Below are positions 8,861 to 40,529 of a stretch of DNA of 45,422 nt, piece after piece. Each line of letters begins with the position of its first letter. Within the stretch, counting starts at the first letter, position 1. A model generated the notes under the pieces. That model was given only the letters and a program-made list of their open reading frames with translations, ran no database searches and was not told where the DNA came from. The DNA comes from Candidatus Saganbacteria bacterium. GTDB lineage: Bacteria > Margulisbacteria > WOR-1 > XYC2-FULL-46-14. The stretch spans positions 1 to 45,422 of the forward strand of contig JABMQY010000011.1 of the NCBI GenBank assembly GCA_013202975.1, given 5' to 3'. The translations under genes were made by a program, and so were the position numbers.

Positions 8861-8890
8861 TGAAATTTTCCCCTTATTTTGACGATACAT
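8861..8890 (+). promoter_or_regulatory. Sigma-28-like promoter (site A)
   Basis: TGAAATTTT begins at 8861 and CGATACAT at 8883, with exactly 20 bases between TG and CG. The flanking ACC before TG and the ATATAGG after the -10 are shared with site B at 19221. It drives the radical SAM-like gene at 8907, which also has a Shine-Dalgarno AGGGAG. Confidence 0.7.
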
Positions 8891-8906
8891 ATATAGGGAG
8901 CAAAAT

Positions 8907-10130
8907 ATGTCAATATTGCCGGTAAAATCAATTGCTCAAGCAAGAGTGCAGCATGCGTTAGGCGTAATGCAGAGAATGGCCATAATGTTCAAAGCCCTCA
9001 ATCAAGGGCTTAACGGAAATGGTTTAGAAGTTCGTTCTTTTATAGACAGTCAGCTTCCTTTGGTTCTCACACTAATGGCAAATGAATCTACAGCTGATAA
9101 CGTTGTTTTACTTAGTAGAATGATAGATCTGGCAGATCAAATGCCCCAGGGTGATGTTTTAAAGGTAGATAAAAGCGATCCAAAAAACTGGATCAACTGG
9201 TTTGATTTAAGCAAAGTAAAAACAGAGACAGAGGAAGATGTCTCTTTGGCAAGAGGCTGCAACGAACCTTGTCATCATTGTTGCAAGAATGTTGGTAAAT
9301 ATGGAACGGATGTAGATCCCCTTCCCTACGCAATTGAAAAGATTTTGCGGGAAGGAATTAATCCCTTTATTGCCATCAATGGAAATGATCTTCTGCACTG
9401 GCATGATCCGTTTTTTAATATTTCGGTTGACAGTTTATTTAACTACTTTATAGATGAGTTTGTGGGGAATCATCGCTTTATTCTTACGCGTGGATGGAGC
9501 GAGCATGATCGACATACTCAATTAGCTGCAGAAAAGATAGCAGAGATGTCTTTTAATGGGGTTTTTCTGCTCTCATTTCACCTGGCATTATCTAGCCCTA
9601 ATACTCTTATGGCAATGTATAAAAATATCGAAGGGGATCATGCTATCCCGGATAAAATCAAAGAAGCTTATGGTAAGCGCAATGCCAACGTTATCCAGAC
9701 ACTTGGCCGGGCACTTGGAAAGATTAGGCTGCTCTATAATGAACATGAATCAATGGCATATTTAAAAGATGCTACAATTTCTGCTTTTCAGGCTACCATG
9801 GATAATCTTGATGGGCCGGCAGAATATGATTTTAATATTCCGCTTGAGTTTGGAGCATATAGATTCTTCCTGCACAAATCAAAAATTTCGTCCAGAGGAA
9901 ATGGAAGTCCATTTTTTAGGAAGTTAGAAGCAGCTCGGCAGGGAGAGCTTTTAAAAATCGATCTTGAGCAGGGCAACCCTTCTGTCGGATATCCTCAGAT
10001 TTCAATTGGTAGGAATGGTAGAAATAAAAGTGCAAAGGTTTCTGTTTCAAGTGTTGATGATTCTAGTGTCATTGTATATCCAACAGAGAATAATGAACCG
10101 TCGAGGATGAATGAGCTATATCCTTTATGA
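8907..10130 (+). CDS. Radical SAM-like protein of unknown function
   Basis: A 407-residue protein whose middle carries RGCNEPCHHCC (C118, C122, C125, plus C126). This is a C-x3-C-x2-C arrangement typical of radical SAM enzymes that bind a 4Fe-4S cluster. Downstream NGNDLLHWHDPFF occupies the position where many radical SAM proteins have a conserved strand. The first 110 residues are helical and lack a recognised domain. The last 60 residues are polar and S/N-rich. I do not recognise the subfamily or a substrate. AGGGAG seven bases upstream supports the start. The stop overlaps the next gene by four bases (ATGA), so the two form an operon under the sigma-28-like promoter at 8861. Confidence 0.6.
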   Translation: MSILPVKSIAQARVQHALGVMQRMAIMFKALNQGLNGNGLEVRSFIDSQLPLVLTLMANESTADNVVLLSRMIDLADQMPQGDVLKVDKSDPKNWINWFDLSKVKTETEEDVSLARGCNEPCHHCCKNVGKYGTDVDPLPYAIEKILREGINPFIAINGNDLLHWHDPFFNISVDSLFNYFIDEFVGNHRFILTRGWSEHDRHTQLAAEKIAEMSFNGVFLLSFHLALSSPNTLMAMYKNIEGDHAIPDKIKEAYGKRNANVIQTLGRALGKIRLLYNEHESMAYLKDATISAFQATMDNLDGPAEYDFNIPLEFGAYRFFLHKSKISSRGNGSPFFRKLEAARQGELLKIDLEQGNPSVGYPQISIGRNGRNKSAKVSVSSVDDSSVIVYPTENNEPSRMNELYPL

Positions 10131-10765
10131 AGTTTTTTAAAATAATATCATTTGATGTTTTGGAAGCGCTGAGAGAAGTGAAGCTCCCAAGGATTAGTGA
10201 TATATTGAATAAAATCAAAAGAGATGAGAGGAGTTTTGTCGATGATATAAGGCGTATTGGAATACCTGTTGCAACGCCACTTATCCCCATAAAAATTGAT
10301 CAAATAAAAGAATTTATTGAGCCGGCCTCTGACTGGCAAAAATTAAACATGGATGGATTTTTTGAAAGCAAAAAAGAGGGTTTTGGATTTATTAGTTTAA
10401 AAATGAATAGCTACAGATGGGATGGGGTAAAAAAATCAACCGATAAGAAAATAAGAGCCATTGAAAAAAAGGTATTAGAGTTGATTGGTTTCCGTGAAAC
10501 ATTTGATGTGCATCGACTGGGTGGCGGTACTAATTATGCAGGAAGTGTAACTCAGTCAGATTTAGATATATTGATAGGTCAATCAGATTTTAAGCAGTTT
10601 ATCCTCAAAGTAATGACCGATAAAAGGAATCATTCCATAACATATAGAAAGGAGTTTTTTGCTGAAAATGCTGAATCAAGAACAAGAAAAATAGTAATAG
10701 CTAGTGTTAAAAGTGCATTAGCACAACATTTAAAAGAATTATTAGATCAAGAATGTCTCCACTAA
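10127..10765 (+). CDS. Unknown protein, IGIP-AT family member 1
   Basis: A 212-residue protein without a recognised domain, translationally coupled to the radical SAM-like gene (ATGA overlap). Residues about 43-52 read IRRIGIPVATPLIP, and later GFGFISLKMN. The same two landmarks occur in the protein encoded at 12459-13007 (LREIGIPIATVLID, AKFFSLKIN), together with an aligned R-I-(S/P)-D about 20 residues before the first. I infer that the two are distant paralogues. This copy has an extra C-terminal segment (HRLGGGTNYAGSVTQSDLDI), not obvious in the other. The overall composition suggests a soluble cytoplasmic protein. Confidence 0.6.
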   Translation: MKFFKIISFDVLEALREVKLPRISDILNKIKRDERSFVDDIRRIGIPVATPLIPIKIDQIKEFIEPASDWQKLNMDGFFESKKEGFGFISLKMNSYRWDGVKKSTDKKIRAIEKKVLELIGFRETFDVHRLGGGTNYAGSVTQSDLDILIGQSDFKQFILKVMTDKRNHSITYRKEFFAENAESRTRKIVIASVKSALAQHLKELLDQECLH

Positions 10766-10766
10766 A

Positions 10767-12410: not shown

Positions 12411-12417
12411 TAGAAGT

Positions 12418-12447: not shown

Positions 12448-12458
12448 AAGAAGGATGG

Positions 12459-13007
12459 TCAAGCTTCAATTGTTTTTCTAGATATTGTTAGCTCAATGAT
12501 GAGCTGGTTGTTTTCATTGAAGACATTACGATCAGTTTTAACAGAGTTTTTTAGGTCTCCTAGTAATACTTCAAGCAATTGGTCTGCAATTAAATCATTC
12601 AGGACATGTTTGGGTAGGTTGGCATAGTTTTGATGCACATTTATTTTTAATGAAAAGAATTTCGCTCCACTTACGGGGGTAGAAAAATCAGCACTTTCTA
12701 TGCTAAATTCAGTTGTTCTGAATATAGGAAGTTTTATTCCTATTACTCCTGCTAGATTTTCTGAGAAATAAAGAAGAATTTGAGTAAAATCCCTGGGATC
12801 GACTTCCCCATACGGTAAGAAATTTTTAAGTAATTCTTCTACATTCCCTCTCTTAATTGCTCTATCAATCAAGACAGTTGCAATAGGTATTCCGATCTCT
12901 CTTAATCTGTCTGGGGAGGAGGTGTTTTGTTTTAAGGTGTTTTTTATTGCATCCTGATAATCAGGAATTCTATCTACTTTAAATGATATTAGTTTTTGTT
13001 TTAGCAT
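12459..13007 (-). CDS. Unknown protein, IGIP-AT family member 2
   Basis: A 182-residue soluble protein with no recognised domain. LREIGIPIATVLID (about residues 36-49) and AKFFSLKIN are shared in position with the protein encoded at 10127-10765, so they are probably distant paralogues. The rest has alternating strands and helices (for example ENLAGVIGIKLPIFR) and no membrane segment. It has its own sigma-28-like promoter (site G) and a Shine-Dalgarno AGGAG eight bases before the ATG. Its stop lies 48 bases before gpmI on the same strand, but gpmI has its own promoter in that gap. Confidence 0.6.
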   Translation of the reverse strand: MLKQKLISFKVDRIPDYQDAIKNTLKQNTSSPDRLREIGIPIATVLIDRAIKRGNVEELLKNFLPYGEVDPRDFTQILLYFSENLAGVIGIKLPIFRTTEFSIESADFSTPVSGAKFFSLKINVHQNYANLPKHVLNDLIADQLLEVLLGDLKNSVKTDRNVFNENNQLIIELTISRKTIEA

Positions 13008-13023
13008 GGGGTTTCTCCTGTAT

Positions 13024-13053
13024 TTATTTCGATAGCTTTACTGGGAAATTTCA
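13024..13053 (-). promoter_or_regulatory. Sigma-28-like promoter (site G)
   Basis: On the minus strand ACCTGAAATTTC, then CGAAATAAATACAGG, with 20 bases between TG (13053-13052) and CG (13031-13030). It lies 16 bases upstream of the ATG of the 12459-13007 gene, with AGGAG between. Confidence 0.65.
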
Positions 13054-13931: not shown

Positions 13932-13934
13932 AAT

Positions 13935-14885: not shown

Positions 14886-15491
14886 TTATCTTTCCCTAGC
14901 CAACTCTATCACCGGCGCAGAGAAAAAATGCGAAAAAGCTTTTGTTGCCACTGGATCATCTCCATCGTTTATATAAGGGTTATCCGCTGATGACCAGATT
15001 TTAAATAATTTAGATTGGGGATGAAGAGTTGTGATAAAAACTATTTTTTTACCTGCCTCTATCAGTTTTCCGACCTCTTTCCAGAATGACATTGAATCAT
15101 TTCTTTTTACTAAATTATGATTTCTTGGAAAAAAACTGTGTATCTCATCAAAAATATATATATCTCTATCCGGTATTCTATCTAGACTGATATCAATTAC
15201 AAATTTATGATGGTTATTGTGGTGATAAAAACTCAATCCGTAAGACGCCAAATAACTTTTCCACTCTTTACTTATAAATAGACGGGATTTACCTATTTGT
15301 GTATTCAACTTAAAATCTTCAATATAATCTGGTCCATTTTTAAATCTTCCTGAAAGAATAACAACAGAATGCGATTCCAGTTGTTGTGTTAGCGTTGCTA
15401 CCGCATTACCCCTCTCTGGCCTGTGTGGAGAATATCTTATTTTAGCTAACGCAGGGCAATAGGGAAACCAGGTAGATTGTTTTATTTTCAT
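14886..15491 (-). CDS. Unknown protein with P-loop NTPase-like features
   Basis: A 201-residue protein I do not recognise. SVVILSGRFKNG (about 42-53) sits where a Walker A would be, but lacks the GKS/T. DIYIFDEIHSFF (about 110-121) reads as a Walker B with DEIH. KKIVFITTLHP (148-158) looks like the following strand and sensor. The order resembles thymidine kinase or a helicase half-domain with a lost P-loop, so it may be a degenerate NTPase. It ends 14 bases from the convergent tpiA. A sigma-28-like promoter (site J) ends about four bases before the ATG and there is no Shine-Dalgarno sequence. Confidence 0.5.
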   Translation of the reverse strand: MKIKQSTWFPYCPALAKIRYSPHRPERGNAVATLTQQLESHSVVILSGRFKNGPDYIEDFKLNTQIGKSRLFISKEWKSYLASYGLSFYHHNNHHKFVIDISLDRIPDRDIYIFDEIHSFFPRNHNLVKRNDSMSFWKEVGKLIEAGKKIVFITTLHPQSKLFKIWSSADNPYINDGDDPVATKAFSHFFSAPVIELARER

Positions 15492-15495: not shown

Positions 15496-15525
15496 TAATA
15501 TCGATCGTCAGATTCTAAAATTTCA
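15496..15525 (-). promoter_or_regulatory. Sigma-28-like promoter (site J)
   Basis: On the minus strand TGAAATTTT begins at 15525 and CGATATTA at 15503, with 20 bases between TG and CG. The ATG of the 14886-15491 gene is only four bases beyond the -10 box. Confidence 0.6.
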
Positions 15526-17794: not shown

Positions 17795-19159
17795 TCAAAT
17801 CCCGTAAGCCATATGTTGGCAAAATTCCTTAAATGAACGCTTAACCCCTAACTCTCTTCGAGCAAGGTCATAAAGCATTAAAATGTTTTCGGCTTTATTC
17901 CCTGGCATATTTATTATCTCAATCCGGTTTTCTCTTATAAAATTATATATGGGAGTTAAAAGCAGCCTCTTTGCGTTTTCAAAACCAATTTCCCTCCCTA
18001 ATTTAATATAAGTGTGTTTAATCAATCCAAAAATTACTTGAATATTCTCTTTCATGTGGGAAGCAATACTCTCCGGAGGAGTGTGCCACGCATGGTATTC
18101 TAATCTTCCGCTCCTAATGAAAAAATTAACAACCGATAAGGGGAAATCATATCCGGTTAGAACTTTATTGACATATTCAAGGGCAAATCGTATTACTAAC
18201 TCTTCTGCCTCTTTTCCAAAAGCCTCTAAAACTGCTTTTTTGCTAACATCAAGCACCCAATTTGTGTTTTTGTCTAAATCGGTTAACGCTGAAACTACAT
18301 CATCAAGCCCGTAATCTTTTCGGCTAAAACCCCTGGCAAAGATCTCGGTAAGACTCTCTTGCCTGAGATCTCCAAGAATGCTTAATGGGTGCGGATTTTG
18401 CATAAAAGCAGCATGGACATTATTAATTACCAACCCTTGAGTATTAATAAATACCCCTATGTCTGAGAGTCTTTGGTTATGGTCAAAAAGATCCTGGACT
18501 CTCAAGAAAATAGTATCTTCATCCGGAAGATTTTGGGCTTTATTTTGCGCCTGCACAGTATTTGCATGTACCAGTCCTGCTCTGTCCATCCGGTCAAATA
18601 TATCAAGGTCAATTCCAAGATCAATTGCAATCTTTCTTGCCAGAAAACTGTTTCTGCGGATAGAATCCTTTGGGAAACGCATATTTATCTCCAGCCCAAA
18701 TCCAAATACTTGTGCAGCCGTATAGGTAAGATTAAAAAGATCTTTTATATTTATCCCCTCTTTTGATAAAGATTTTGCATGGTAGTGGTCAATCGATAAA
18801 ACAAATGTTGTATTTGCTGGAAACTCAGAGAAATATGATCTAATCCCAGTCTTTTCTCTTGGAAAAAGAGCTCCACTGGTATTGATCAGGCACTGCCCCA
18901 CTCTCTTAGCAGAATAATGCAGAAGATCCATGAATTCTTGGGTATTTCCCATATAAAGAAAGGGTTCTCCAAGAGAGTAATAGAGCTGTGGCAAACCTGT
19001 GAGTTGATCAACTGCCTGTCTGGCAATATCAGGATCCATGTCTCTAGGTTGCACTTGCTTTGGATTAAAACAATGCTTACAAGATAGATTGCATCTTGAA
19101 GTAACCAAAAGGGTGGCTTTTTGTCTTCCTAATCCATTTAATATTCCTGCAGCATTCAT
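17795..19159 (-). CDS. Radical SAM protein of unknown specificity
   Basis: A 454-residue protein. Residues 17-33 (LLVTSRCNLSCKHCFNP) contain the canonical C-x3-C-x2-C (C23, C27, C30) that binds a 4Fe-4S cluster. YYSLGEPFLY corresponds to the SAM-binding GGEP-like strand, and INTSGALFP follows. The C-terminal 150 residues are helical without a recognised auxiliary-cluster motif, so a SPASM domain is not supported. The substrate is unknown. A sigma-28-like promoter (site H) ends about four bases before the ATG, with no Shine-Dalgarno sequence. It is divergent from the methyltransferase-like gene at 19258, which has the same promoter type, so the two could act on a common product. Confidence 0.75.
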   Translation of the reverse strand: MNAAGILNGLGRQKATLLVTSRCNLSCKHCFNPKQVQPRDMDPDIARQAVDQLTGLPQLYYSLGEPFLYMGNTQEFMDLLHYSAKRVGQCLINTSGALFPREKTGIRSYFSEFPANTTFVLSIDHYHAKSLSKEGINIKDLFNLTYTAAQVFGFGLEINMRFPKDSIRRNSFLARKIAIDLGIDLDIFDRMDRAGLVHANTVQAQNKAQNLPDEDTIFLRVQDLFDHNQRLSDIGVFINTQGLVINNVHAAFMQNPHPLSILGDLRQESLTEIFARGFSRKDYGLDDVVSALTDLDKNTNWVLDVSKKAVLEAFGKEAEELVIRFALEYVNKVLTGYDFPLSVVNFFIRSGRLEYHAWHTPPESIASHMKENIQVIFGLIKHTYIKLGREIGFENAKRLLLTPIYNFIRENRIEIINMPGNKAENILMLYDLARRELGVKRSFKEFCQHMAYGI

Positions 19160-19163: not shown

Positions 19164-19193
19164 ATATTTCTTATAGATAATCAAAAAATTTCA
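19164..19193 (-). promoter_or_regulatory. Sigma-28-like promoter (site H)
   Basis: On the minus strand ACCTGAAATTTT, then AGAAATATACC, with 20 bases between the TG (19193-19192) and the first base of the -10 box. The box starts AG rather than CG. It lies immediately before the ATG of the radical SAM gene. Confidence 0.6.
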
Positions 19194-19220: not shown

Positions 19221-19250
19221 TGCAATTTTTGATCTAATTTAACGATATAT
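19221..19250 (+). promoter_or_regulatory. Sigma-28-like promoter (site B)
   Basis: ACCTGCAATTTT, then CGATATATATATAGG, with 20 bases between TG (19221) and CG (19243). It is nearly identical in layout to site A. The ATG of the 19258 gene overlaps the end of this conserved block. Confidence 0.7.
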
Positions 19251-19257
19251 ATATAGG

Positions 19258-20358
19258 ATGAAAATAGCAAGTAAAGCACCTATGTTTCATAAATTAGTAT
19301 TGCAAAGAGAGCAAGCAGGCCATCTATTGCCGATTCCTATGCAAACATCAATTGTTAGAGCTCCAAACCTAGATATCGAAGCTGCAGAGAGATATGCATT
19401 AATGCATGACGAAAAACCACGCATCGGGAGATATGAAGTTGATCGAGGACTACTTGAGTCATCAATGTTTTCCTCCTTTAGCCGTTTTGGTTCTATTGCT
19501 TCACATATTAGCTGGCGATTAGAGCGAGATAAAACTCCATTAAAGATTCTCACAATTGGTCCTGGACAGGGATTTATGGAGCGTGAAATAAAGGATCTCT
19601 TTGGCGAGAGAATTACAATTGATACCTTTTCGCTAACCTATGGTTTTGATCCTGCGAATCTCTCGTCAGTTCGTTATAGATATCAGGGGAATATTGAATA
19701 TAATAAACTGCCTCAGGGATATGATATTGTCCTCTCTATTTGCGGAACCCATGTTGCCTCTGACCAGATGTTTGTTATGCAGCAGATCTTTAACTCTCTA
19801 AATATGAATGGGGAAGCTTATTTTATTGTTGATCAACCGCATTTGCCGCCTGGGATGGAACGTGATGGGCCGGGAGATAATCATTATCGATTTAGAAAAC
19901 TAGCAAATGGAGGAATAGATTATCCATGCTACATTTGGGAATTGAAAGATCGCGGCCTTTTTTTAGCTCTACGAACTACACTAAATATTTCTGACATTGG
20001 GGTGGCAGTTTATCTTGAAAGAGGAACAGGTGATGATATTGAGATAAGAAGTTTAATTGATGAAGTTATTGAAAAGCCTCACCCGGAACGTTCTTCTTTA
20101 AAATTTCAAATAACACGGGGTGGAAAATGGTTTTCAGATTTCTATGCTCACAAAGCGGCAATAAAGAGCTTTATTAATAGCTGGCTTAAAGAGAAGGGGT
20201 ATACTCTAGAATCCCGAACTGATGAGGTACTTGAACATCTATTTGAATGTGCTAAGGACGAGTGTATGTACAGCCTTAAGCCAATTGAAAACAAGTTTGA
20301 GGACCTGCTACTGCTTCACAACCTTGAGGGCATAATTGAGAGTGTTATTGATTGGTAA
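19258..20358 (+). CDS. Class I SAM-dependent methyltransferase-like protein
   Basis: A 366-residue protein. LKILTIGPGQGFMERE (95-110) resembles methyltransferase motif I with its glycine-rich SAM loop. LPQGYDIVLSICGTH and NMNGEAYFIVD read like the motif IV and post-motif strands. The 90-residue N-terminal region and the 150-residue C-terminal helical region are not recognised. The substrate is unknown. The ATG is about seven bases from a sigma-28-like -10 box (site B), with no separate Shine-Dalgarno sequence. It is divergent from the radical SAM gene and its promoter pairs with site H within a 98-base intergenic region, which suggests co-regulation. Confidence 0.65.
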   Translation: MKIASKAPMFHKLVLQREQAGHLLPIPMQTSIVRAPNLDIEAAERYALMHDEKPRIGRYEVDRGLLESSMFSSFSRFGSIASHISWRLERDKTPLKILTIGPGQGFMEREIKDLFGERITIDTFSLTYGFDPANLSSVRYRYQGNIEYNKLPQGYDIVLSICGTHVASDQMFVMQQIFNSLNMNGEAYFIVDQPHLPPGMERDGPGDNHYRFRKLANGGIDYPCYIWELKDRGLFLALRTTLNISDIGVAVYLERGTGDDIEIRSLIDEVIEKPHPERSSLKFQITRGGKWFSDFYAHKAAIKSFINSWLKEKGYTLESRTDEVLEHLFECAKDECMYSLKPIENKFEDLLLLHNLEGIIESVIDW

Positions 20359-20464: not shown

Positions 20465-23050
20465 TTACTTTTTTGAATAAACTAGTGCTACATCTTTTAG
20501 AGAAACTGATGCATAATGATCACCCTGCCAGACTTCTGCACGCAATACTTCAGGAACTTTACGGCACGGAAGAAAAACAGTTTTTTGTCCGCTATGCCTA
20601 AAAGCCACAGTAGATTTACTGCCATTTTTTAATGATATCTTTCCAAAGGCAGTTTTATGATTGGTATTTGCGCCATACACATAGCCATAGGAAACAAAAA
20701 TGCCAATAAGTTTAGTCTGTTTGGAAATATTTTTGGGTTGTTTTATTTCTATTTCTAGAGGATCATGAAGTGCCGAACCGTCTCCTCCATAATCTTTTGA
20801 TTGCGCCACATCACGCCAAGAAGGAGAATTATCTATAACCACTATTGTCTTAAAATCGCTTAAAGAATATTTTGTTCTTATGATAAAGTGACATAGTTTA
20901 TTCCTGGTTGCAGCCTCATAATCATAAGTCAGGAGGTTATTCCAAATCCATCTTTTTGTTTTGGGAGAAAAGGACTTCATTGACCCCTCTAATTCCGATA
21001 AAGCATCTAGCTTGATCAATGCCTTCACAATTTCTTCTTTGATGCTCCTCTTAAATTCTCTTTTTAACCTTGCAATAAGATGAGGAACTGCCCTTTTATC
21101 CCCGTTTTTCCTCAAATATTCTGCCGCAGCAAATCGGACTTGATGGAACCTGTGATTTAATAATTTAGACTTATCACTGGATATCATTAATATTGTTCCT
21201 GCAGCTGCGCTTGGGGAATAATCATATTTGGGTTTTGTTTTCCATTTCCAATTAGATGCTACAATTGCTTCAAGGGCGCGGATTATTTTGGGGTGCCTTA
21301 CTTTCAATCCCTTTAAAATATCTAAGCTATCATAAATACTGTTTCCATCCCTAAGTATCTTTAATACATACTTAGAATCCCCAAGCCTTAGCATGGAATT
21401 CATTATGCTTGCCTTTTCATTCTTATACTTTTCTACCTTATAAGCATTATAAAGAGCAGGAATGGCTGGGATGGCAAGAGGTCTTCCAATCCTAGCCAAG
21501 GAGTTAGCGGCAGCTACCCTGGTTTCGCTCCACTTATCTTTTAATGCTTTATTCAGAAGTGAAACGACAAGGGGACTTTTATTTTTACCCAATATTTCAA
21601 CTGTTCTATATGACATAAGACCATTTTTAAGGTTTTCTTCCAGTGCAGAAATAGCTGAGGGAGATGCTATCGCTGCCAGTATATTTGCTGCTTTAGTTCT
21701 AATAGGGTGTTCATAAAGATATCCTTTCCCCCTTGAAAGTAATAATGATAACAAAGGTACTTCTGCCGGCCCAATTTTAGCCGCTTTTTCCAATTGGTTT
21801 TCAGATAAGCAGACAAGTAATTTTAATTTATTAATATTTTTGCGATCACTAAAAACTTTCTTTTTAAGTAAAATCTTAGCCATTGATCCCAAATTACCAA
21901 TTACCGGATCTTTTTTGATGGATTCCATTAAGGCAGAGCCGAATGACTCTTCTGTTTGCCCTGCTAAATATGAATACTCTTTTTTATTTGTTAGAGCATA
22001 GGATAAAATGATTTTATTCTCATCATCGCTAGAGGTTTTTTGTTGATCTAAACCTTTTGCTGCCCACGAACTAATATAAATTCTTTTATCATTTAAAAGA
22101 TATTTCAAAACTTTGACAAAGTTTTTTTTGCCAATATCTACTTCAAGTAAATAGAATGTGTATGCCCCATAAACTCCATTGCTTCCTTTTTCTTTTTTAT
22201 TTGATCCATGCTGCAACATATTATTGAAGATAGTGAGTATTTTTTTCTCTTCATTTTCAGTCTTATACGTCTTATAAGCCAGTGCCGTTATAATAGCGGC
22301 AATTTTATGATTACAATTATTCGCAATTATTGGAATGTTAGAAATAACCGAAAAATATTTTTTACCAAATATACCCCTAAAAAGTAATAATAATTTACCC
22401 CTAGAGCTCCCTCTTGATTTTATGAATTTCCTTGCGAGAATGTTTTTTAATAAATCAATAGAACTACTCAGTTTTGATCTATTTATCAATTGTCCAACAA
22501 TTGGAAGAAGAGGATGTATTCCTTTATGGTTTTCTGAGCACCTAGACAAAAAATTCACAAAATAGCGAACAATTTCTTTGTTTTTCTTGTTGATACCTAT
22601 TAGAAAGACGTTAACGAGAAACATAGCCAATAAACCTTTTGATGGTTTTAAATATCCGGTTACTTTATCGAGAAAGCTCTTTATATTCTTAAATTCCTTA
22701 CCTGACAGATTATTCAATTCTGAATTCAGAAAAGCTTCTGAAGCCATTAACTGCGATTTTTTGTAATGGTAAATCCAGGCTTCCCTCTCATCAATCTTTT
22801 TGTCTTTATTTATATCTGCCGAATGCCACTTATTGGCATCTCCATATCCTTCTTGTGTTCCGGGAGGCAGCTTGTCCAACCAGCTCTTCTTTTTTGCTTC
22901 AATCACACCATTTCTATTTCTGTCATTAAATCCTAAGTGCTTATAGAGCCTTTGTTTTGAGCTGAAAAAATCAAGCCCTAATTTTTCGCGCTTACTACAT
23001 CCTTTCGCCCCCGAACTGCCGCCAAATAGTAATTCTGTCAAAGTGCTCAT
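20465..23050 (-). CDS. EF-hand plus HEAT-repeat protein of unknown function
   Basis: An 861-residue protein. Near the N-terminus are two calcium-loop-like segments, DRNRNGVIEAKK and DINKDKKIDERE, spaced like a pair of EF-hands. From about residue 450 to 690 there are HEAT-like repeats (SPSAISALEENLKNG, RVAAANSLARIGRPLAIPAI, DKRAVPHLIARLKRE). The last 120 residues are strand-rich. I see no signal peptide. I take the ATG at 23050, because GGAGGG lies eight bases upstream, and not the GTG three codons earlier that overlaps this ribosome-binding site. Function is unknown. The EF-hand start and promoter type are shared with the 39148-40488 gene. Confidence 0.7.
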   Translation of the reverse strand: MSTLTELLFGGSSGAKGCSKREKLGLDFFSSKQRLYKHLGFNDRNRNGVIEAKKKSWLDKLPPGTQEGYGDANKWHSADINKDKKIDEREAWIYHYKKSQLMASEAFLNSELNNLSGKEFKNIKSFLDKVTGYLKPSKGLLAMFLVNVFLIGINKKNKEIVRYFVNFLSRCSENHKGIHPLLPIVGQLINRSKLSSSIDLLKNILARKFIKSRGSSRGKLLLLFRGIFGKKYFSVISNIPIIANNCNHKIAAIITALAYKTYKTENEEKKILTIFNNMLQHGSNKKEKGSNGVYGAYTFYLLEVDIGKKNFVKVLKYLLNDKRIYISSWAAKGLDQQKTSSDDENKIILSYALTNKKEYSYLAGQTEESFGSALMESIKKDPVIGNLGSMAKILLKKKVFSDRKNINKLKLLVCLSENQLEKAAKIGPAEVPLLSLLLSRGKGYLYEHPIRTKAANILAAIASPSAISALEENLKNGLMSYRTVEILGKNKSPLVVSLLNKALKDKWSETRVAAANSLARIGRPLAIPAIPALYNAYKVEKYKNEKASIMNSMLRLGDSKYVLKILRDGNSIYDSLDILKGLKVRHPKIIRALEAIVASNWKWKTKPKYDYSPSAAAGTILMISSDKSKLLNHRFHQVRFAAAEYLRKNGDKRAVPHLIARLKREFKRSIKEEIVKALIKLDALSELEGSMKSFSPKTKRWIWNNLLTYDYEAATRNKLCHFIIRTKYSLSDFKTIVVIDNSPSWRDVAQSKDYGGDGSALHDPLEIEIKQPKNISKQTKLIGIFVSYGYVYGANTNHKTAFGKISLKNGSKSTVAFRHSGQKTVFLPCRKVPEVLRAEVWQGDHYASVSLKDVALVYSKK

Positions 23051-23076
23051 ATCAATCACCCTCCTTTTTCTTATTT

Positions 23077-23106
23077 AATTGTCGCACAGTAATGGATTAT
23101 GTTTCA
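23077..23106 (-). promoter_or_regulatory. Weak sigma-28-like promoter (site I)
   Basis: On the minus strand TGAAACATA, then CGACAATTAAAT, with 20 bases between TG and CG. The -35 part matches only TGAAA. It lies upstream of the EF-hand/HEAT gene. Confidence 0.4.
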
Positions 23107-23166
23107 TTTGTACTTTTAGCTAAAATTTGGTCTTTTAGAATTCAGCATAAATATCAGGAATAATTG

Positions 23167-23230: not shown

Positions 23231-23260
23231 TGAAATTTTAGGTAAATACGTGCGATAATA
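23231..23260 (+). promoter_or_regulatory. Sigma-28-like promoter (site E) of the LacI-type gene
   Basis: GGTGAAATTTTA, then CGATAATAATGAGG, with 20 bases between TG (23231) and CG (23253). The start codon at 23279 follows with the ribosome-binding site GGGAGGA. Confidence 0.65.
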
Positions 23261-23278
23261 ATGAGGGAGGACTTACTT

Positions 23279-24307
23279 ATGTCAAAAAGACGAAAAAAGG
23301 TGAATATAAAAGACGTTGCCAGGGCCCTAAATATTTCTTATGCTACCGTATCGCAGGCCCTAAACCATCCGCGCGAGGTAAATAGAAAAACAGTGCAATC
23401 AGTTATTGAAAAATGCAGGGAACTGGAATATCACAAGAACATCCCGAGAAAAAAGAGAAAGGGGGTGATCGGAGTCATTGCTCAGGACATTTATAATCTT
23501 GTTTTGGGTGAATATTATACCCACGTTTTGGTCGGTGTTTTAGAAGAGGTGCAAAAGCTTAATATAAGACTTGAGGTTGAGTTCCTTTCCGAAGGAAACT
23601 CGCCTTTAATGATCTCAAAGAATTCAGTTGACGGCGTCCTGCTCTTTGGCAAGATAAAAAAAGAGCTGGTCCAGCATTTAAGACAAAATGAGATCCCAAT
23701 GATTTTGGTCGGCCACCCTATTCCCCATATTGAGCTGCATACTGTAATGCCGGATGGCCGGGCCGGAATGTACTCTTTGACAAAACACCTATTGGATCTG
23801 GGTCACAGGAAGATTGCTCTGGTTTATTCCTCTCCATTGCGTGATTATATTACGGCAGATCGAATCGCCGGCTACCGCTGCGCCCTGACTGAATATCGAA
23901 TAAAATTAACCGATAAGTATCTGATTGAAGCAAACTGGTGTCATCCGGAATCATCTTATGAAGCTACTTGTAGTTTTTTAAAGCTAAATAAAGCTAATCG
24001 TCCGACAGCAATTATTTATATGAATGACACAATGGCATATCGGGCTTATTCTGCATTTACCGAAAGAAAAATAAGGATACCACAAGATATTTCTATTGCC
24101 GGATTTGATGATTTGGTCATTCCCAATTATATTGAACCGTTCAAACCGACGTTAACAACCGTGAAGGTTGATCAGGGGCTTTTGGGTAAAACCGCAGTTG
24201 ATTTGCTTTTAAATCTAACAGAAAAACCTTCAAAGATTTCTTTACGCTACACTTTGCCGGTAGAGCTAAAGATAAAAGGATCAACCGGACCGGTAAATGC
24301 TAAATAG
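23279..24307 (+). CDS. LacI-family transcriptional regulator
   Basis: A 342-residue regulator. Residues 8-50 (VNIKDVARALNISYATVSQA, then VNRKTVQSVIEKC) are the LacI helix-turn-helix and hinge-proximal helix. The rest is a periplasmic-binding-protein-like effector domain (GVIGVIAQDIYN, VDGVLLFGKI, ITADRIAGYRCAL, RPTAIIYMND, ISIAGFDD). The start is set by GGGAGGA seven bases before the ATG. An upstream in-frame ATG at 23261 overlaps the ribosome-binding site region. Its 3' end overlaps the convergent ATP-type phosphofructokinase gene by eight bases. A role in sugar-phosphate or carbon regulation is inferred from the neighbours. The effector is unknown. Confidence 0.85.
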   Translation: MSKRRKKVNIKDVARALNISYATVSQALNHPREVNRKTVQSVIEKCRELEYHKNIPRKKRKGVIGVIAQDIYNLVLGEYYTHVLVGVLEEVQKLNIRLEVEFLSEGNSPLMISKNSVDGVLLFGKIKKELVQHLRQNEIPMILVGHPIPHIELHTVMPDGRAGMYSLTKHLLDLGHRKIALVYSSPLRDYITADRIAGYRCALTEYRIKLTDKYLIEANWCHPESSYEATCSFLKLNKANRPTAIIYMNDTMAYRAYSAFTERKIRIPQDISIAGFDDLVIPNYIEPFKPTLTTVKVDQGLLGKTAVDLLLNLTEKPSKISLRYTLPVELKIKGSTGPVNAK

Positions 24308-25325: not shown

Positions 25326-25351
25326 AAATTCCACAGAAATTAAAAATAGTG

Positions 25352-25383
25352 TGAAATTTTTAGTATAAACTGCACGATAAATA
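25352..25383 (+). promoter_or_regulatory. Sigma-28-like promoter (site C), first of a tandem pair
   Basis: AGTGTGAAATTTTT, then GCACGATAAATATATAG, with 21 bases between TG (25352) and CG (25375). It is 125 bases upstream of the phosphohexomutase gene. Confidence 0.6.
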
Positions 25384-25437
25384 TATAGAGGACTCGATAG
25401 AAGCCTAAGTCTCTTTTTTTTGTGGCTTTAAATAGTG

Positions 25438-25467
25438 TGAAATTTTTAAAAAAGCTGCACGAAAAAA
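25438..25467 (+). promoter_or_regulatory. Sigma-28-like promoter (site D), second of a tandem pair
   Basis: The same left half as site C (AATAGTGTGAAATTTTT) and the same CTGCACGA before the -10, with 20 bases between TG (25438) and CG (25460). The -10 itself (CGAAAAAAAT) is weaker. The duplication of about 20 bases suggests recent copying of the promoter. Confidence 0.5.
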
Positions 25468-25508
25468 ATGTGTAAAGAAACCAGCCCAAATAAAGGGGAA
25501 AATGAAAA

Positions 25509-27893
25509 ATGGCATTAGCAACAGGAGCATTGATACCGGCACCAGTTAGGGCACAAACGCAAAGAGGTGGACACTCAACATATGGGACATTACCTTTAAA
25601 CAGATCCCTAACTATCGGACAAGCATTATTAGCGGCAAGAAGAGGGATTACCGGATATTTAAGAGGAGAACTTGACGCGGAAAACCTATCGCCAGCATCT
25701 TATCAGGCATCCTTACCAGCAATCGATACGCTTGAACAATGGTTAACTGATGAAAATATCCATAGGTTAGTTCCCTCTGCTAGAGACGGAATTATTAATA
25801 CAATTATTGGTGAAGAATGGGAGATATTAGTAGATGCCTTCTTTACTGAAAAGATGTTTGGAACAGCCGGTGTTCGAGGAGTTGCTCACCGAAATGGCGA
25901 TGATGTTCTTCGAGCCTTTGAAGAAGGATTAGAAATACCACGTCTTCGTGGCCCAAACTGGATTAACGAATTGACTGTTGCAAGAGTTGCTCAAGGTATT
26001 ATTGATCGAATGAAAGCAAAAGGCGAAACGAGAATTTTAATTGGCTGCGATCCAAGAGTCAAGAATATGCAGCTTGCCGAAATGCTAGCTCGTGTTGCCA
26101 TTGGAAATGGTATGCAGGTATTTTTAGCCGATAAAGAATCCCCCTTCCCTCTTCTAATGCATGCAATTACTCAACAAAAGGTTCGATTTGCAGGTGAACT
26201 ACCTCAAGATTTTAGTTTTACTACACATGATGGAGAGACTATATCAGATCAAAAAACACTAAATATTGAAGGCTCTGTTGGAATGTATATTTCCGCTTCG
26301 CATAACGGAAGAAAAGATAATGGTTTTAAATACTTTCAGGGAGATAGTTCACAAGCCGGACCAGATGAAAGAAGGAAAACCGTAGCAAGGATTAACACCC
26401 TTGGTTGGGGCGATATTAAGACTGTTGAAAGTCTTGATGAAGCAAACCCGGGACAATTAATTTTTGTTGGTGGAGATATGGCTGTGGAAGGTAAAAATTG
26501 TCATGGAGCACCATTGCTTAACATTGAAGACCAACATCGCGGTGGAATGCTTGATCATGTTATTAATATTGAATTATTGAGAGATATGGCTCCAAGATTA
26601 GTTCAAGGATATTCAGCCTTTAATGGAGCAGGTGGTCAACTATATACAAATGTTACTCAAAATATTGGAGTTCCTAGTTCAGGTTTTCTATCAGTTGATT
26701 CATTATTCACTCCTGATGGAAGATTTATGCCGTTTGAAGACAAGATGCCAGATCCAGGAGATACTTTTGGTGCAGGAATTTTCTTCCAAGAATTCATGAA
26801 ACAATACGGACAACAAGGACTCCAATCTATAAATGCTGGAATGTTTGCACATGACCCAGATGCAGATCGAAAATCACTAATGCTTCCTCTATTTGGCACA
26901 AACAAAGAAGCTTTTCGAGGAGCTGATTGGGTTTTAATAAAAGCTAATCTACTTTGGTCTGTATTAAGTTATTACAGGTTTTCACAAATGCAAGAATTAA
27001 ATGGAGGAAACATCCCGAATCGTAAAAAACGATATGTTATGCTCTCACATGCAACCACTGATATGGTTGCCCTTGTTGCAAAATACTTTGGTATTAAGGT
27101 ATTAGGATTAATGGAACATGAACAAACTGGACTGAAAATGAATGTTCCTGAAGCGGATAGCCGATTCACCGTTGGAATGAACTATGCTGCAGCGGCTTGG
27201 AGAGTATTTTCAGGACAACAAGGATTACATAACGACTGGACTGCTGAAGAGAGCAATGGACTTGGAATATTTGGTAGTGCTCCATTGCAAGGACAAAGAC
27301 TAGGAAATAAGGGATGGATTCTTGATAAAGATGGATTTTTGGCAAGCTTGCTAACACTAGAATTATTTGCATATTTAAATGATAGAGGAATACATTTCCT
27401 TGATTACGTTGCAGAAATGTCCAGAAATATCGGAACATATATTGGTTCATCAATGACCCCTCTTCCAGAAAAACCATGGACCGGGCCGACCGGAACAGAG
27501 ATGAAACAGCTTCTTCTTAGCTGGGCAGCTGATGCTGATCAAAGATTCAAAGCAGGAGAAACTGTAAAGATTGGAGATAGAACAGTTACCGGAGTTACTG
27601 CTTTTAGAACAGGTAAATACCCAATTGGAACTATGATTGATCCTCCAGATCAGGGTGTAAAATTTACTTTTGCCGACAAATCATGGTCCAATGTAAGACC
27701 ATCTGGAACTGCTAACCAGTTAAGAGGATATGAAGACTTAAGAAATCCAGAAGTTGCTAAAGCGACTACTAATGAAGAAGCAATCAGATTAATTGCTGAA
27801 ACGGAGAGAAGAGCTGTTGAGCTAAACACCGCAAAACTTATTCAGGTACAAGAAGAACAAGGTATTGCAGCAGATAGAATAATTAGACCGTAA
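25509..27893 (+). CDS. Phosphohexomutase-superfamily protein (phosphoglucomutase/phosphomannomutase-like)
   Basis: A 794-residue member of the alpha-D-phosphohexomutase superfamily. All four active-site elements are present: the substrate-entry FGTAGVRG (117-124), the phosphoserine loop SASHNG (262-267, catalytic S264, with Gly replacing the usual Pro), the metal loop DPDADR (449-454), the sugar-binding EESNG (580-584) and the phosphate-binding RPSGT (730-734). It is much longer than the usual 450-580 residues, with about 110 extra N-terminal residues and large insertions. It should move phosphate between C1 and C6 of a hexose; which sugar is unclear. AAAGGGG precedes the ATG. It heads an operon with the HIT gene and pgi behind two tandem sigma-28-like promoters. 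Confidence 0.82.
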   Translation: MALATGALIPAPVRAQTQRGGHSTYGTLPLNRSLTIGQALLAARRGITGYLRGELDAENLSPASYQASLPAIDTLEQWLTDENIHRLVPSARDGIINTIIGEEWEILVDAFFTEKMFGTAGVRGVAHRNGDDVLRAFEEGLEIPRLRGPNWINELTVARVAQGIIDRMKAKGETRILIGCDPRVKNMQLAEMLARVAIGNGMQVFLADKESPFPLLMHAITQQKVRFAGELPQDFSFTTHDGETISDQKTLNIEGSVGMYISASHNGRKDNGFKYFQGDSSQAGPDERRKTVARINTLGWGDIKTVESLDEANPGQLIFVGGDMAVEGKNCHGAPLLNIEDQHRGGMLDHVINIELLRDMAPRLVQGYSAFNGAGGQLYTNVTQNIGVPSSGFLSVDSLFTPDGRFMPFEDKMPDPGDTFGAGIFFQEFMKQYGQQGLQSINAGMFAHDPDADRKSLMLPLFGTNKEAFRGADWVLIKANLLWSVLSYYRFSQMQELNGGNIPNRKKRYVMLSHATTDMVALVAKYFGIKVLGLMEHEQTGLKMNVPEADSRFTVGMNYAAAAWRVFSGQQGLHNDWTAEESNGLGIFGSAPLQGQRLGNKGWILDKDGFLASLLTLELFAYLNDRGIHFLDYVAEMSRNIGTYIGSSMTPLPEKPWTGPTGTEMKQLLLSWAADADQRFKAGETVKIGDRTVTGVTAFRTGKYPIGTMIDPPDQGVKFTFADKSWSNVRPSGTANQLRGYEDLRNPEVAKATTNEEAIRLIAETERRAVELNTAKLIQVQEEQGIAADRIIRP

Positions 27894-37526: not shown

Positions 37527-37539
37527 TGTATATTTGGCT

Positions 37540-37578
37540 CCCCTCCCACTAAAAACAAAAGTGGGGTTTTCCCACTTT
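37540..37578 (-). promoter_or_regulatory. Leader with mutually exclusive hairpins before nusA
   Basis: On the minus strand AAAGTGGG (37578-37571) pairs with CCCACTTT (37565-37558), followed by TTTTGTTTTT: an intrinsic terminator. The same CCCACT can pair instead with a downstream AGTGGG (37550-37545), which abuts the GGAGGGG ribosome-binding site. The two hairpins cannot coexist, so the leader can terminate or hide the ribosome-binding site. The ATG is at 37526. Confidence 0.6.
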
Positions 37579-37610
37579 ATTTTGCAATCTATTAAATACC
37601 TACCTTTTAT

Positions 37611-37639
37611 ATTATAACGCTGCACGGGGGAATATGCAA
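37611..37639 (-). promoter_or_regulatory. Sigma-70 promoter of the nusA-infB-rbfA-nrnA-truB-ligA operon
   Basis: On the minus strand TTGCAT, a 17-base spacer and a perfect TATAAT. The predicted start of transcription near 37604 leaves a leader of about 80 bases before the nusA ATG. Confidence 0.75.
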
Positions 37640-37675
37640 GCCCACCGGGGGAACTTCAACCATCATGGGATTTAT

Positions 37676-37703
37676 TTTGATGTTGGATTTTGAAGTTTGA
37701 TGT
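37676..37703 (+). repeat. Degenerate short tandem repeat (TTTGATGTT-type units)
   Basis: TTTTGATG, TTGGATTTTGAAG and TTTGATGTT follow each other between nusA and the oxidase gene. It is the same style of tract as in tpiA, truB and 43714-43762. It runs into the -10 box of the downstream gene. Confidence 0.55.
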
Positions 37704-37709
37704 TATTAT
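37701..37709 (+). promoter_or_regulatory. Extended -10 promoter of the FAD-linked oxidase gene
   Basis: TGTTATTAT is an extended -10 six bases before the ATG at 37716. There is no convincing -35 and no Shine-Dalgarno sequence. Confidence 0.5.
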
Positions 37710-37715
37710 ATAGAT

Positions 37716-39113
37716 ATGCTCAAAAAAACAGACCCAGATATCATCAAATCGTACCTGGAAGACAGTTCCAACCTTCAGGGCGGCCATGCCGAGGGGGTTT
37801 ATGTCCCCGAGAACGAAAAAGAGATCATAGAAGCGGTTAAGGAAAGTAGTAGTAAAAAGCAGCCTTTGACGGTTTCTGGTGCCGGGACGGGGACTACGGG
37901 GGGACGGATTCCCTTTGGCGGCTGGGTATTATCAACTGAAAAGTTAAATCGGATAGTTAATATTGATAAAACAAATAAGACTGCCCTGATTGAGCCTGGA
38001 GTGACACTTGAGGAGCTGGATGCTGCTGTTTCTAAAGTGGGACTGCTGTATGCGCCGGATCCTACTGAAAAGAGCGCTTTTTTGGGGGGTACTGTTTCTA
38101 CAAATGCTTCTGGAGCACGAAGTTTAAGGTTTGGCTCAACCCGGGATCATATTAATAAGCTAAGAGTAGTGTTGAGCTCCGGTGAAGTTTTCGGTATTTC
38201 TCGGGGACAGAAGCCCCATTTTCCAATTCCCAGTTACCATTTCCCTGCTATCAAAAATTCAGCTGGCTACTATTCTAAACCGGGCATGGATTTAATCGAT
38301 TTATTCATTGGTTCCGAAGGAACACTTGGTGTTGTGTCGGAAATTGAGGTGAGATTGATGGATAAATTAGGTGAAACATTTGATTGTATTGCATTTCTCG
38401 ATTCAGAAGAGGCTGCTGTTTTATTTACAGAAGAATTGAGAGAAAAAAAAGATGTACTTACACTTGAATACTTTGATCAAAACTCGCTAGAAATGCTTAG
38501 AAAGACTTATCCTCATATTCCCTCAGGAAATAAAACAGCTATTTATTTTGAGCAGATTATAAGAGATGATAAATATCTTGATTTTTGGGAGGAATTCTTC
38601 AATAAGCACAAAGTGTCGATGGACTCTGCTTGGCTGGGTATGAACGACAAGCAGAAAAAAGAGCTGCATGATTTCCGTCATGCAATTCCAGAGACCATCA
38701 ATGAACTTTATAAGCATGAACATCAGCAAAAGGTTTCTCTTGATATTGCAGTGCCTGATAAAAATTTCAGATCTATGTTAAATTTTTACAACTTACAACT
38801 CACAACTAACAATCTACAACTTTTCCACATAAAATTTGGTCATATTGGACAGAGTCATCTGCATGTTAATATGCTGCCGAAATCTGATGAACAACGCAAA
38901 TTGGCTCAAGACTTGGCGATGAAATTTGTTAAGAAGGCGGTTTCACTTGGGGGAACTGTATCTGCAGAGCACGGAATCGGTAAAATCAAGCACACTTATT
39001 TGAAAGAGATGTTTGGACAAGCTGCAATTGATGAGATGATTGGGATTAAAAAGAGATTTGATCCGAGGATGATTCTAAATCTGGGAAATATCTTTGATAT
39101 AGTACATACTTAG
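37716..39113 (+). CDS. FAD-linked oxidase (glycolate/D-lactate dehydrogenase GlcD-like)
   Basis: A 465-residue VAO/PCMH-type flavoprotein. The FAD-binding half contains PLTVSGAGTGTTGGRIPFGG, LIEPGVTLEELD, GGTVSTNASGARSLRFGSTRDH and FIGSEGTLGVVSEIEV. The C-terminal half has the FAD-oxidase fold, with FGHIGQSHLHVNMLP and the substrate/metal motif VSAEHGIGKIKHTYL. Relatives oxidise D-lactate, glycolate or 2-hydroxyglutarate. The substrate here is not resolved. Residues about 357-369 (NLQLTTNNLQL) are encoded by short repeats of ACAACTT type. The ATG is six bases from an extended -10, with no Shine-Dalgarno sequence, so it is probably leaderless. It is divergent from the nusA operon. Confidence 0.85.
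   Translation: MLKKTDPDIIKSYLEDSSNLQGGHAEGVYVPENEKEIIEAVKESSSKKQPLTVSGAGTGTTGGRIPFGGWVLSTEKLNRIVNIDKTNKTALIEPGVTLEELDAAVSKVGLLYAPDPTEKSAFLGGTVSTNASGARSLRFGSTRDHINKLRVVLSSGEVFGISRGQKPHFPIPSYHFPAIKNSAGYYSKPGMDLIDLFIGSEGTLGVVSEIEVRLMDKLGETFDCIAFLDSEEAAVLFTEELREKKDVLTLEYFDQNSLEMLRKTYPHIPSGNKTAIYFEQIIRDDKYLDFWEEFFNKHKVSMDSAWLGMNDKQKKELHDFRHAIPETINELYKHEHQQKVSLDIAVPDKNFRSMLNFYNLQLTTNNLQLFHIKFGHIGQSHLHVNMLPKSDEQRKLAQDLAMKFVKKAVSLGGTVSAEHGIGKIKHTYLKEMFGQAAIDEMIGIKKRFDPRMILNLGNIFDIVHT
38786..38822 (+). repeat. Short tandem-repeat tract inside the FAD-linked oxidase gene
   Basis: Units of the type TACAACT/CACAACTAA are repeated about five times with small changes and read in frame as NLQLTTNNLQL between two conserved segments. 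Confidence 0.75.
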
Positions 39114-39135
39114 TATACACCTAGTATATACTAAG
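39109..39135. repeat. A+T-rich inverted repeat at the end of the oxidase gene
   Basis: CTTAGTATA (39109-39117) and its complement TATACTAAG (39127-39135), with further TAGTATAC units nearby. The stop codon of the oxidase gene lies inside the left arm. It may act as a weak bidirectional terminator between the convergent genes, but there is no G+C-rich stem. Confidence 0.5.
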
Positions 39136-39147
39136 TATACATTTTAT

Positions 39148-40488
39148 CTATGGATGAGGAACCCCAGCCGTTCTAAAAATAGCCCTGCTCTCCTGTAGTG
39201 TGAAACCAGCTGCTTGTATATTTTTGTATGTTGATTCTATAATGCTTTCTATCCAGGTTGTGTTTCGTTTGTCCATTTTGGAGACAGAGACAAGTGCTTT
39301 AATATAAATAGGTTTAATTTCAGCTTTTGAAGATCCTTTTATCCCCATTTGAAATGCAATCTTTCTCAAAACATTTGCCCTATGATAGTGATCAGAAATA
39401 GATTCGGCCATTTTTATTGATTCTTTTTGCTGTCCAGCTTCCAAAAGCATTGTGAGGGCTGCCGATAAAAAAGCATCCTTTTCATAAGAATATTTAATTG
39501 AGCTAAAAAGAGCGGTAAATTTTACTATGTCAGTATTGCTTGAGACAATCCTTCCAAGGGCTTCAAATGTAAATTTTCGCGTCTGGTCTCGCAATATTTT
39601 TTGAGCTAATTTTAGGGCTGGTTTATATTTTCCTAGTTTGGCCAGGGTTTGGGCTGTGTCTTGAGCCTTGATATCCCTTGTTACGCTACGTCTGTCAGGA
39701 TAAGAGATGACAATTTTAAAGGCCCCTTTTGCTAATTTATCTACTTCCCTTTTATAGAATGTATCCTGACTTATTGGAACAAGGATTTTATTTATTACAA
39801 AAAGCTTGTGCCCTTCTAATTTAAGACTTTTGATGCTTTTTAGTGCGTCGTTATAAAATCCAGCTTGTTGCATCCGTATTATTATATCTGTCATTGTCAC
39901 AGAGACATTAATATCATCAGGGCCTGCTTTCTTTGCTATCTCAAAACAACGTCTAAGGGCTTGCCTTCTCTTATTTTTGTTCAATTTAGTATCGTCTCTA
40001 TCCATTTTTTCATAGATATTTTTTAAAAAGGGTTTTTGTCTTTCAAATGATTTTTGGGAAGATGCATATTTAAACATTTGATCAAACTGACCATCTGATC
40101 CCATATAAATTGCAATTGCACTGAGGGTTTCTACGGATGGTTTGTTTTTAATTGCCTCATCATAAAAACCGAGTGAAGCCAGCAAGGCTTTTCCCGCAAA
40201 GACCTTGCCCCCTTTGATTTTCTTGCGTGCCAATAGACGAAGAGTATCTTTGTCTTTTTCTGTTAGAGGGTGTTTTATTCTTTCTAGCTTTAGGCCATGT
40301 CTAATATGAAGCGCGTGTCTGGTTTCTAATGCAGTAATAAGACCATCCCCATCAAGATCGTGTTCTGCTTTATAGCCTGAGTCTCTACTTTTTGGGTCTT
40401 TTGCAACAACGCCATCGCAATTCGCATCATTCATCCGAAAGATGTTGAACAGATCCCGATTAATTTTATTTTTACATCCTATAAACAT
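39148..40488 (-). CDS. EF-hand protein with TPR-like helical repeats
   Basis: A 446-residue protein. Residues 15-55 hold two calcium-loop-like segments, NDANCDGVVAKD and DLDGDGLITALE, in an arrangement like that at the N-terminus of the 20465-23050 protein. The rest is a series of helical pairs of TPR or PPR-like type (GFYDEAIKNK, GFYNDALKSIKSL, GKYKPALKLAQKIL, GQQKESIKMAESI), a scaffold often used for protein binding. No signal peptide or membrane helix is evident. The gene has a sigma-28-like promoter (site F) about 11 bases upstream of the ATG. The groEL terminator insulates it from upstream transcription. Function is unknown. Confidence 0.65.
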   Translation of the reverse strand: MFIGCKNKINRDLFNIFRMNDANCDGVVAKDPKSRDSGYKAEHDLDGDGLITALETRHALHIRHGLKLERIKHPLTEKDKDTLRLLARKKIKGGKVFAGKALLASLGFYDEAIKNKPSVETLSAIAIYMGSDGQFDQMFKYASSQKSFERQKPFLKNIYEKMDRDDTKLNKNKRRQALRRCFEIAKKAGPDDINVSVTMTDIIIRMQQAGFYNDALKSIKSLKLEGHKLFVINKILVPISQDTFYKREVDKLAKGAFKIVISYPDRRSVTRDIKAQDTAQTLAKLGKYKPALKLAQKILRDQTRKFTFEALGRIVSSNTDIVKFTALFSSIKYSYEKDAFLSAALTMLLEAGQQKESIKMAESISDHYHRANVLRKIAFQMGIKGSSKAEIKPIYIKALVSVSKMDKRNTTWIESIIESTYKNIQAAGFTLQESRAIFRTAGVPHP

Positions 40489-40499
40489 AGCTTATACAT

Positions 40500-40529
40500 A
40501 TATATCGTTTAATTTTAGCGTAAATTTCA
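40500..40529 (-). promoter_or_regulatory. Sigma-28-like promoter (site F)
   Basis: On the minus strand AGTGAAATTTAC, then CGATATATATGTA, with 20 bases between TG (40529-40528) and CG (40507-40506). It is placed just behind the groEL terminator and ahead of the EF-hand/TPR-like gene. Confidence 0.65.

Follow-up and report, generated by a model that had tools for sequence, protein, structure and literature searches.

A promoter class with sigma-28 geometry ahead of mostly lineage-specific genes in Candidatus Saganbacteria and its probable reader, a divergent FliA/WhiG factor

Sigma-28 homologues with roles other than motility include WhiG in Streptomyces and the sigma-28 of Chlamydia. Promoters of the flagellar sigma-28 factor FliA follow the consensus TAAAGTTT-n11-GCCGATAA (PMC2859248). 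Here we describe a related promoter motif in Candidatus Saganbacteria (WOR-1), starting from a stretch of 45,422 nucleotides that makes up positions 1 to 45,422 of contig JABMQY010000011.1 (assembly GCA_013202975.1; the window), in which ten such sites had been proposed from the DNA letters alone (the original prediction). The Saganbacteria motif and FliA promoters have elements of equal length, N11 between the octamers and a CGATA core. In contrast to FliA promoters, the Saganbacteria -35 element begins with TG and reads TGAAATTT, no GC precedes CGATA, an AAAWT block and a TATATA after the -10 element are added, and the targets, at about 300 sites, are not flagellar or chemotaxis genes. Because the -35 element differs and the GC of GCCGATAA is absent, we regard the motif as a variant rather than a canonical FliA promoter; the original prediction had it matching the layout of FliA/WhiG-family promoters. 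The candidate reader described below would resemble WhiG and Chlamydia sigma-28 in being a sigma-28 homologue at work without a swimming flagellum. Unlike in those systems, Saganbacteria keep a basal body and an export gate, and the regulon would be far larger and lineage-specific.

Promoter motif and predicted transcription starts

Promoter geometry, position, conservation and co-occurrence were all computed here. All ten proposed sequences were read directly at their positions in the window. From 64 matches within the first 421 kb scanned of the genome to which the window belongs (hereafter the source genome; 2.2 Mb, 139 contigs, ~91% complete), we built a 46-bp matrix, the CGATA core having belonged to the pattern that seeded it. 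In these 421 kb, 69 sites reach at least 14 bits, compared with 0 in shuffled sequence. Across the source genome, TGAAATTT-N14-CGATA with at most one mismatch occurs 274 times versus 7 times for the reversed pattern, and we estimate that the genome carries roughly 300 sites of this class.

The two elements are rigidly spaced. The start of CGATA lies 22 nt beyond the T of TGAAATTT, N14 separating the two elements: 85 exact pairs have a spacer of 14, and each other spacer from 8 to 20 has 0 or 1. The spacing of 20 bases given in the original prediction agrees with this when counted, as it was, to the 'nn' before CGATA, the site at 25352+ being one base longer. Written as GAAATTTT-N11-nnCGATAn, the rigid 11-bp spacing of the octamers fits sigma-28, as does the core of the -10 element (C.83, G.99, A.99, T.86, A.96, then T/A). 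The -35 element departs from the sigma-28 form TAAAGTTT, its consensus being TGAAATTT and the first position of its octamer being G in 99-100%; positions 20-21, where sigma-28 promoters have GC before CGATAA, carry 0.1-0.4 bit, with A favoured at 21. From 5' to 3' the logo consists of the AAAWT block at -42 (UP-element-like), TGAAATTTT, a weak A-tract, CGATATATA, a pyrimidine at -1 and a purine at +1. Information outside -43..+6 is negligible (about 0.03 bit per column).

A matrix scan of the genome and its relatives had been put forward in the original prediction. We scanned 716 kb of the source genome and, as an independent test, 1.59 Mb of a genome of the same family (G073), finding 128 and 119 sites, respectively, against 1 and 0 in order-3 Markov sequence. 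The scanned contigs of the source genome were picked for having matches, so site density there is inflated, with positions unaffected; site positions and starts of open reading frames (ORFs) derive from mechanical ORF calling. Core coding DNA makes up 82-83% of the sequence and contains 7 of the 128 and 10 of the 119 sites (p about 1e-82 and 1e-68), far from the equal matching of coding and intergenic DNA that would have spoken against the original prediction. A same-strand ORF start lies within 100 nt downstream of 113 sites in the source genome and 102 in G073. When only ORFs of 100 aa or more were counted, this was found for 110/128 and 102/119 sites in forward orientation, compared with 36 and 43 when the sites were reversed.

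The position of the start codon is equally regular. It falls exactly on the predicted +1 (offset +34) in 31 genes of the source genome and 29 of G073; leaderless starts lacking a Shine-Dalgarno (SD) sequence account for about a quarter of sites. Among source-genome genes, none of the 38 at offsets up to 35 has an SD, versus 39 of the 52 leadered ones. Leadered genes keep the pyrimidine/purine pair at -1/+1, 8 nt after CGATA (59/82 in the source genome, 67/77 in G073). Orthologs also share the motif between the two genomes, 14 pairs being targets in both where 0.8 would be expected (p 5e-18). Since a start codon or a pyrimidine/purine initiator lies at one exact distance from the motif, and the SD appears in leadered genes only, we take the motif to be a promoter at which transcription starts at a set base, and it almost certainly represents one promoter class. 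The predicted start is the purine 8 nt downstream of CGATA; transcripts would be leaderless or carry a short leader with an SD. With the N14 spacer rigid and coding DNA avoided, the central proposal of the original prediction, a second promoter class of sigma-28 geometry just upstream of mostly lineage-specific genes, is upheld. The leaderless starts, the UP-like AAAWT block and, as described below, the flagellar apparatus without flagellin and the N-terminal bias of the targets go beyond that prediction.

Each of the 30 further genomes of the class (Candidatus Saganbacteria/WOR-1) is likewise enriched in the motif, with 27-148 matches versus at most 9 in the control. Elsewhere in the phylum the motif is weaker or altered; G002 and other genomes from outside the class have a related form, e.g. 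TGAAATTATTTT-N-TGTTCGATA. Such altered motifs suggest that one promoter class has drifted separately in different lineages. Among flagellated cousins from the phylum, TAAAG..-ACCGA(T/A)A stands ahead of several flagellins, clearly so at L284, L285, L288, L290, and L293. The octamer geometry of the L284 flagellin promoter, CTAAAGTTT-N11-ACCGAAAA, is identical to that of the Saganbacteria motif.

The candidate sigma factor and its rivals

Three genes of the sigma-70 family were found in the source genome, encoding RpoD, a FliA-like protein and an extracytoplasmic function (ECF) factor. The FliA-like gene (C15:7472-8188; L113) lies inside a cluster of flagellar basal-body and export genes. A FliA/WhiG-type sigma gene was what the original prediction advised looking for, and this one is present in 30 of the 31 class genomes at 62-79% identity; full-length matches outside the class are about 40% identical or less. 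In 26 relatives, 25 of which are Saganbacteria, WOR-1 or Margulisiibacteriota records, it lies within the conserved flagellar cluster. FliA/WhiG (TIGR02479) is the best sigma family for the protein, whose region 2 is nearly invariant among the aligned sequences. Judged by alignment to 6pmi, Arg74 and Asp81 of E. coli have their counterparts in R63 and D70, both invariant in alignment A1, and the place of Arg91 is taken by Tyr80, also invariant in A1, with PVPYR in 30/30 sequences. Work by Koo et al. in 2009 reportedly assigned the reading of the GC of GCCGATAA to Arg91 and that of CGATAA to Arg74 and Asp81.

We consider it probable (roughly 70%) that the sites are read by this divergent FliA/WhiG (sigma-28) factor of the flagellar cluster. 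Its -10 specificity would have been retained through the conserved Arg74 and Asp81, the upstream GC would no longer be read, Arg91 having become Tyr, and the -35 element would have moved from TAAAGTTT to TGAAATTT. Which sigma factor reads the sites, where transcription actually starts and what the regulon does are matters that we infer from these sequence comparisons. In addition to the Tyr, the factor differs from the FliA/WhiG family in that its anti-sigma partner family FlgM (PF04316) was detected in 0 of the 31 class genomes, the controls being positive. The flagellar cluster of the source genome contains no motif sites, and the sequence around those of 26 relatives (437 kb) holds 8 matches of 8-31 bits, none with a start codon at offset 34.

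Several points weigh against this assignment. At 143.4 bits the protein falls below the TIGR02479 cut-off of 189.6, and the argument linking Arg91 to the GC depends on what Koo et al. reportedly found. A second FliA-like sigma, found in 69/74 phylum genomes and 59-70% identical within the class, has a distribution almost as wide and, as read by eye, also lacks Arg91. No FliA ortholog was found in the motif-bearing G063 (79% complete). The -35 element, besides departing from that of FliA, resembles ECF promoters too.

The main alternative, although in our view unlikely, is that the same promoters are read by the second FliA-like sigma, a protein of about 200 aa. Its best family is likewise FliA/WhiG (74 bits), and its gene, which in G073 lies at C3:139908-140513, adjoins flhA in many Saganbacteria genomes. 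However, it was not found in the source genome (only 91% complete), which is the genome richest in sites. Moreover, its recognition helix LSESQVSRI looks like that of an ordinary FliA, whereas the -35 element of the motif is unusual, and it is phylum-wide, whereas the exact motif is strongest in the class.

Every genome should encode RpoD, and an extended version of its promoters might account for the second class; with a -10 element of CGATATA instead of TATAAT, a spacer rigid at a single length and an RpoD in the source genome that is a normal member of its family, we hold this to be highly improbable. The ECF factor (C24) would come into question if -35 TGAAAT and CGATA were taken together as an ECF-type promoter. 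SigW-type ECF promoters (TGAAAC-N16-CGTA) share TGAAA at -35 and the spacing with the Saganbacteria motif, and 17 class genomes besides the source genome encode a clear counterpart of the ECF factor (at least 45% identity). The motif nevertheless has CGATA and not CGTA, and the ECF factor has no match in the motif-rich G047-G049, G054, G055, G057, G069, G070, and G072, among them G048 with 148 motif matches and G070, which is 100% complete. With nine or more motif-rich genomes lacking a match, we rejected the ECF factor as the reader on its distribution, and its chances appear slimmer still than those of RpoD. Least probable of all is a motif that serves as an operator for a transcription factor or that belongs to a mobile cassette. 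In favour of this are the frequent mobility of lineage-specific genes and the length of the motif (37 bits), but the motif is asymmetric and directional, it keeps one exact distance to a start codon or initiator, and its conservation ends at the RNA polymerase footprint; the mobile cassette was rejected because the sequence beyond that footprint is not conserved.

Regulon content and the sites in the window

The regulon appears to consist mainly of lineage-specific, soluble, fast-evolving proteins. A match in G073 was found for 27/105 targets of at least 150 aa, compared with 330/445 non-targets (p 6e-20), and targets are soluble more often than conserved non-targets. Proteins with an FGE-sulfatase domain make up 7 of 110 targets; others are methyltransferases, two GlgA-type starch synthases, kinases, radical SAM proteins and a sigma-54 activator, and many have no family assignment. 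The link to hexose-phosphate metabolism drawn in the original prediction proved too narrow, as it covers only a few of the roughly 300 targets.

In the 716 kb of the source genome, a family of 19 proteins has a common N-terminal module of ~60 residues, M..KLISFD...LR..G.PhA.PLI. Fifteen of the 19 lie directly behind the promoter motif, and their C-terminal parts vary (FGE-sulfatase, LRR, HEAT or unannotated). The predicted fold of a protein with this module, at a mean predicted local distance difference test (pLDDT) score of 58, was too poor for a fold search. Two genes in the window bear the module (10127-10765 and 12459-13007), and a similar protein is encoded beside rpoD (L031, minus strand).

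Eight of the ten proposed sites in the window (8861+, 13053-, 15525-, 19193-, 19221+, 23231+, 25438+, and 40529-) score 33-41 bits, and exactly these eight reach 14 bits or more there. Promoter P1 (8852..8895, plus strand; 38.3 bits) comprises the UP-like block, the -35 element TGAAATTT at 8861, a CGATA -10 element and a predicted +1 at 8895. It precedes the gene at 8907-10130 (407 aa), with a start codon offset of 46 and an SD-like GGGAG, and a second gene at 10127..10765 on the plus strand, whose N-terminal module KIISFD...GIPVATPLI matches the hidden Markov model at E 8.6e-17. P2 (13019..13062, minus strand; 40.8 bits; -35 T at 13053, predicted +1 at 13019) is followed by the module-family gene at 12459-13007 (182 aa; start offset 46, SD GGAG). 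At the next two promoters the predicted +1 is the A of the ATG, so that the genes would be leaderless, with a start offset of exactly 34: P3 (15491..15534, minus strand; 33.2 bits; -35 T at 15525, predicted +1 at 15491) lies ahead of 14886-15491 (201 aa), and P4 (19159..19202, minus strand; 33.6 bits; -35 T at 19193, predicted +1 at 19159) ahead of a radical SAM protein gene at 17795-19159, the G073 ortholog of which also has the motif. P5, the divergent partner of P4 (19212..19255, plus strand; 39.2 bits; -35 T at 19221, predicted +1 at 19255), serves the gene at 19258-20358 (366 aa; start offset 37).

P6 (23222..23265, plus strand; 36.4 bits; -35 T at 23231, predicted +1 at 23265) precedes a gene for a LacI-family regulator (LacI Pfam matches), whose real start is probably the ATG at 23279 after GGGAGGA rather than 23261. 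Two closely similar promoter copies, 86 bp apart, stand ahead of the phosphohexomutase operon (25352-25472). The upstream copy, P7a (25343..25387, plus strand), is the proposed site 25352+; it scores only 6.4 bits in the fixed-spacing matrix because its CGATA lies one base further (spacer N15), and we retain it as a promoter-like, spacer-plus-one copy. The downstream copy, P7b (25429..25472, plus strand; 39.3 bits; -35 T at 25438, -10 CGAAA, predicted +1 at 25472), has a start offset of 71 to the phosphohexomutase gene at 25509-27893 (PGM_PMM_I), which is followed by HIT-like and pgi-like ORFs. P8 (40495..40538, minus strand; 40.9 bits; -35 T at 40529, predicted +1 at 40495) lies ahead of 39148-40488 (446 aa; start offset 41). 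The remaining proposed site, 23106- (TGAAACAT/CGACA; 23072..23115, minus strand), ahead of a HEAT-repeat protein gene at 20465-23059, was dropped at 0.5 bits.

Flagellar apparatus and a possible export programme

The flagellum of Campylobacter exports the non-flagellar Cia and Fed proteins (PMC12445086), and basal bodies of the non-motile symbiont Buchnera have been proposed to act as a protein secretion system (PMC6814793). Saganbacteria resemble these in a flagellar apparatus that is a candidate exporter; scale and sequences are unrelated. In the literature on Saganbacteria together with flagella, sigma factors or secretion, we found nothing relevant.

The export gate protein FlhA is present in 30 of the 31 class genomes. 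Pfam matches in the source genome cover FlhA, FlhB, FliP, FliQ, FliR, FliM/N, FliF, FliE, FliI, rod proteins, FlgH, and FlgI. Flagellin was not detected in any of the class genomes, and we rejected a failure of the search as the explanation, given the positive controls and the eight cousin genomes of the phylum that do have flagellins. FliG of the source genome (L051 4289-4804, 171 aa) matches the models for its N and middle domains and not the one for the C-terminal torque domain, which suggests a basal body unable to rotate. Its flhB consists of two overlapping ORFs (L280 2724-3849) where G073 has a single ORF of 368 aa, a frameshift that is either real or due to assembly. Beside the flagellar cluster, a long protein with NTAVG..AL repeats is encoded at L051 3-1784, and its end, judged by eye, resembles a peptidase S74 or tail-fibre-type chaperone.

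Type III export signals are typically acid-poor N-termini rich in S/T/N/Q/P. In soluble targets, the D+E content of residues 2-26 is.046 versus.109 (p 7e-14), becoming normal further on, and the first 25 residues are rich in S/T/N/Q/P without a Sec signal. The bias holds separately for leaderless and SD-supported starts, in the source genome and in G073, as a statistical trend of the target set and not as a call on individual proteins.

Tentatively, and at less than even odds, we suggest that in Saganbacteria the flagellar hierarchy may have become a secretion programme, in which a flagellin-less, probably motorless basal body, its type III export gate retained, is combined with a re-specified sigma-28 driving hundreds of lineage-specific genes. 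The flagellar sigma and the exporter would have been kept and reused, as the retained gate without flagellin, the N-termini of the targets and the Campylobacter and Buchnera precedents lead us to propose. Many targets would then be substrates carrying an N-terminal export signal, or the common module fused to varied binding domains, with FGE/C-type-lectin-like, LRR and HEAT domains in view. A point against this proposal is that some targets are enzymes or regulators, which would hardly be exported; the regulon would therefore be mixed at best.

For an uncultured class, the promoter motif provides a readable regulatory code, with ~300 co-regulated start sites that can be listed together with +1 predictions at base level. 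If the divergent FliA/WhiG factor is indeed the reader, nature would here offer an example of a flagellar sigma whose specificity has changed, the loss of the GC from the promoter going together with that of an arginine from the protein. The motif also brings together, as a single programme, fast-evolving proteins that otherwise carry no annotation; they may be cargo of an exporter derived from the flagellum, in cells that lack flagellin.

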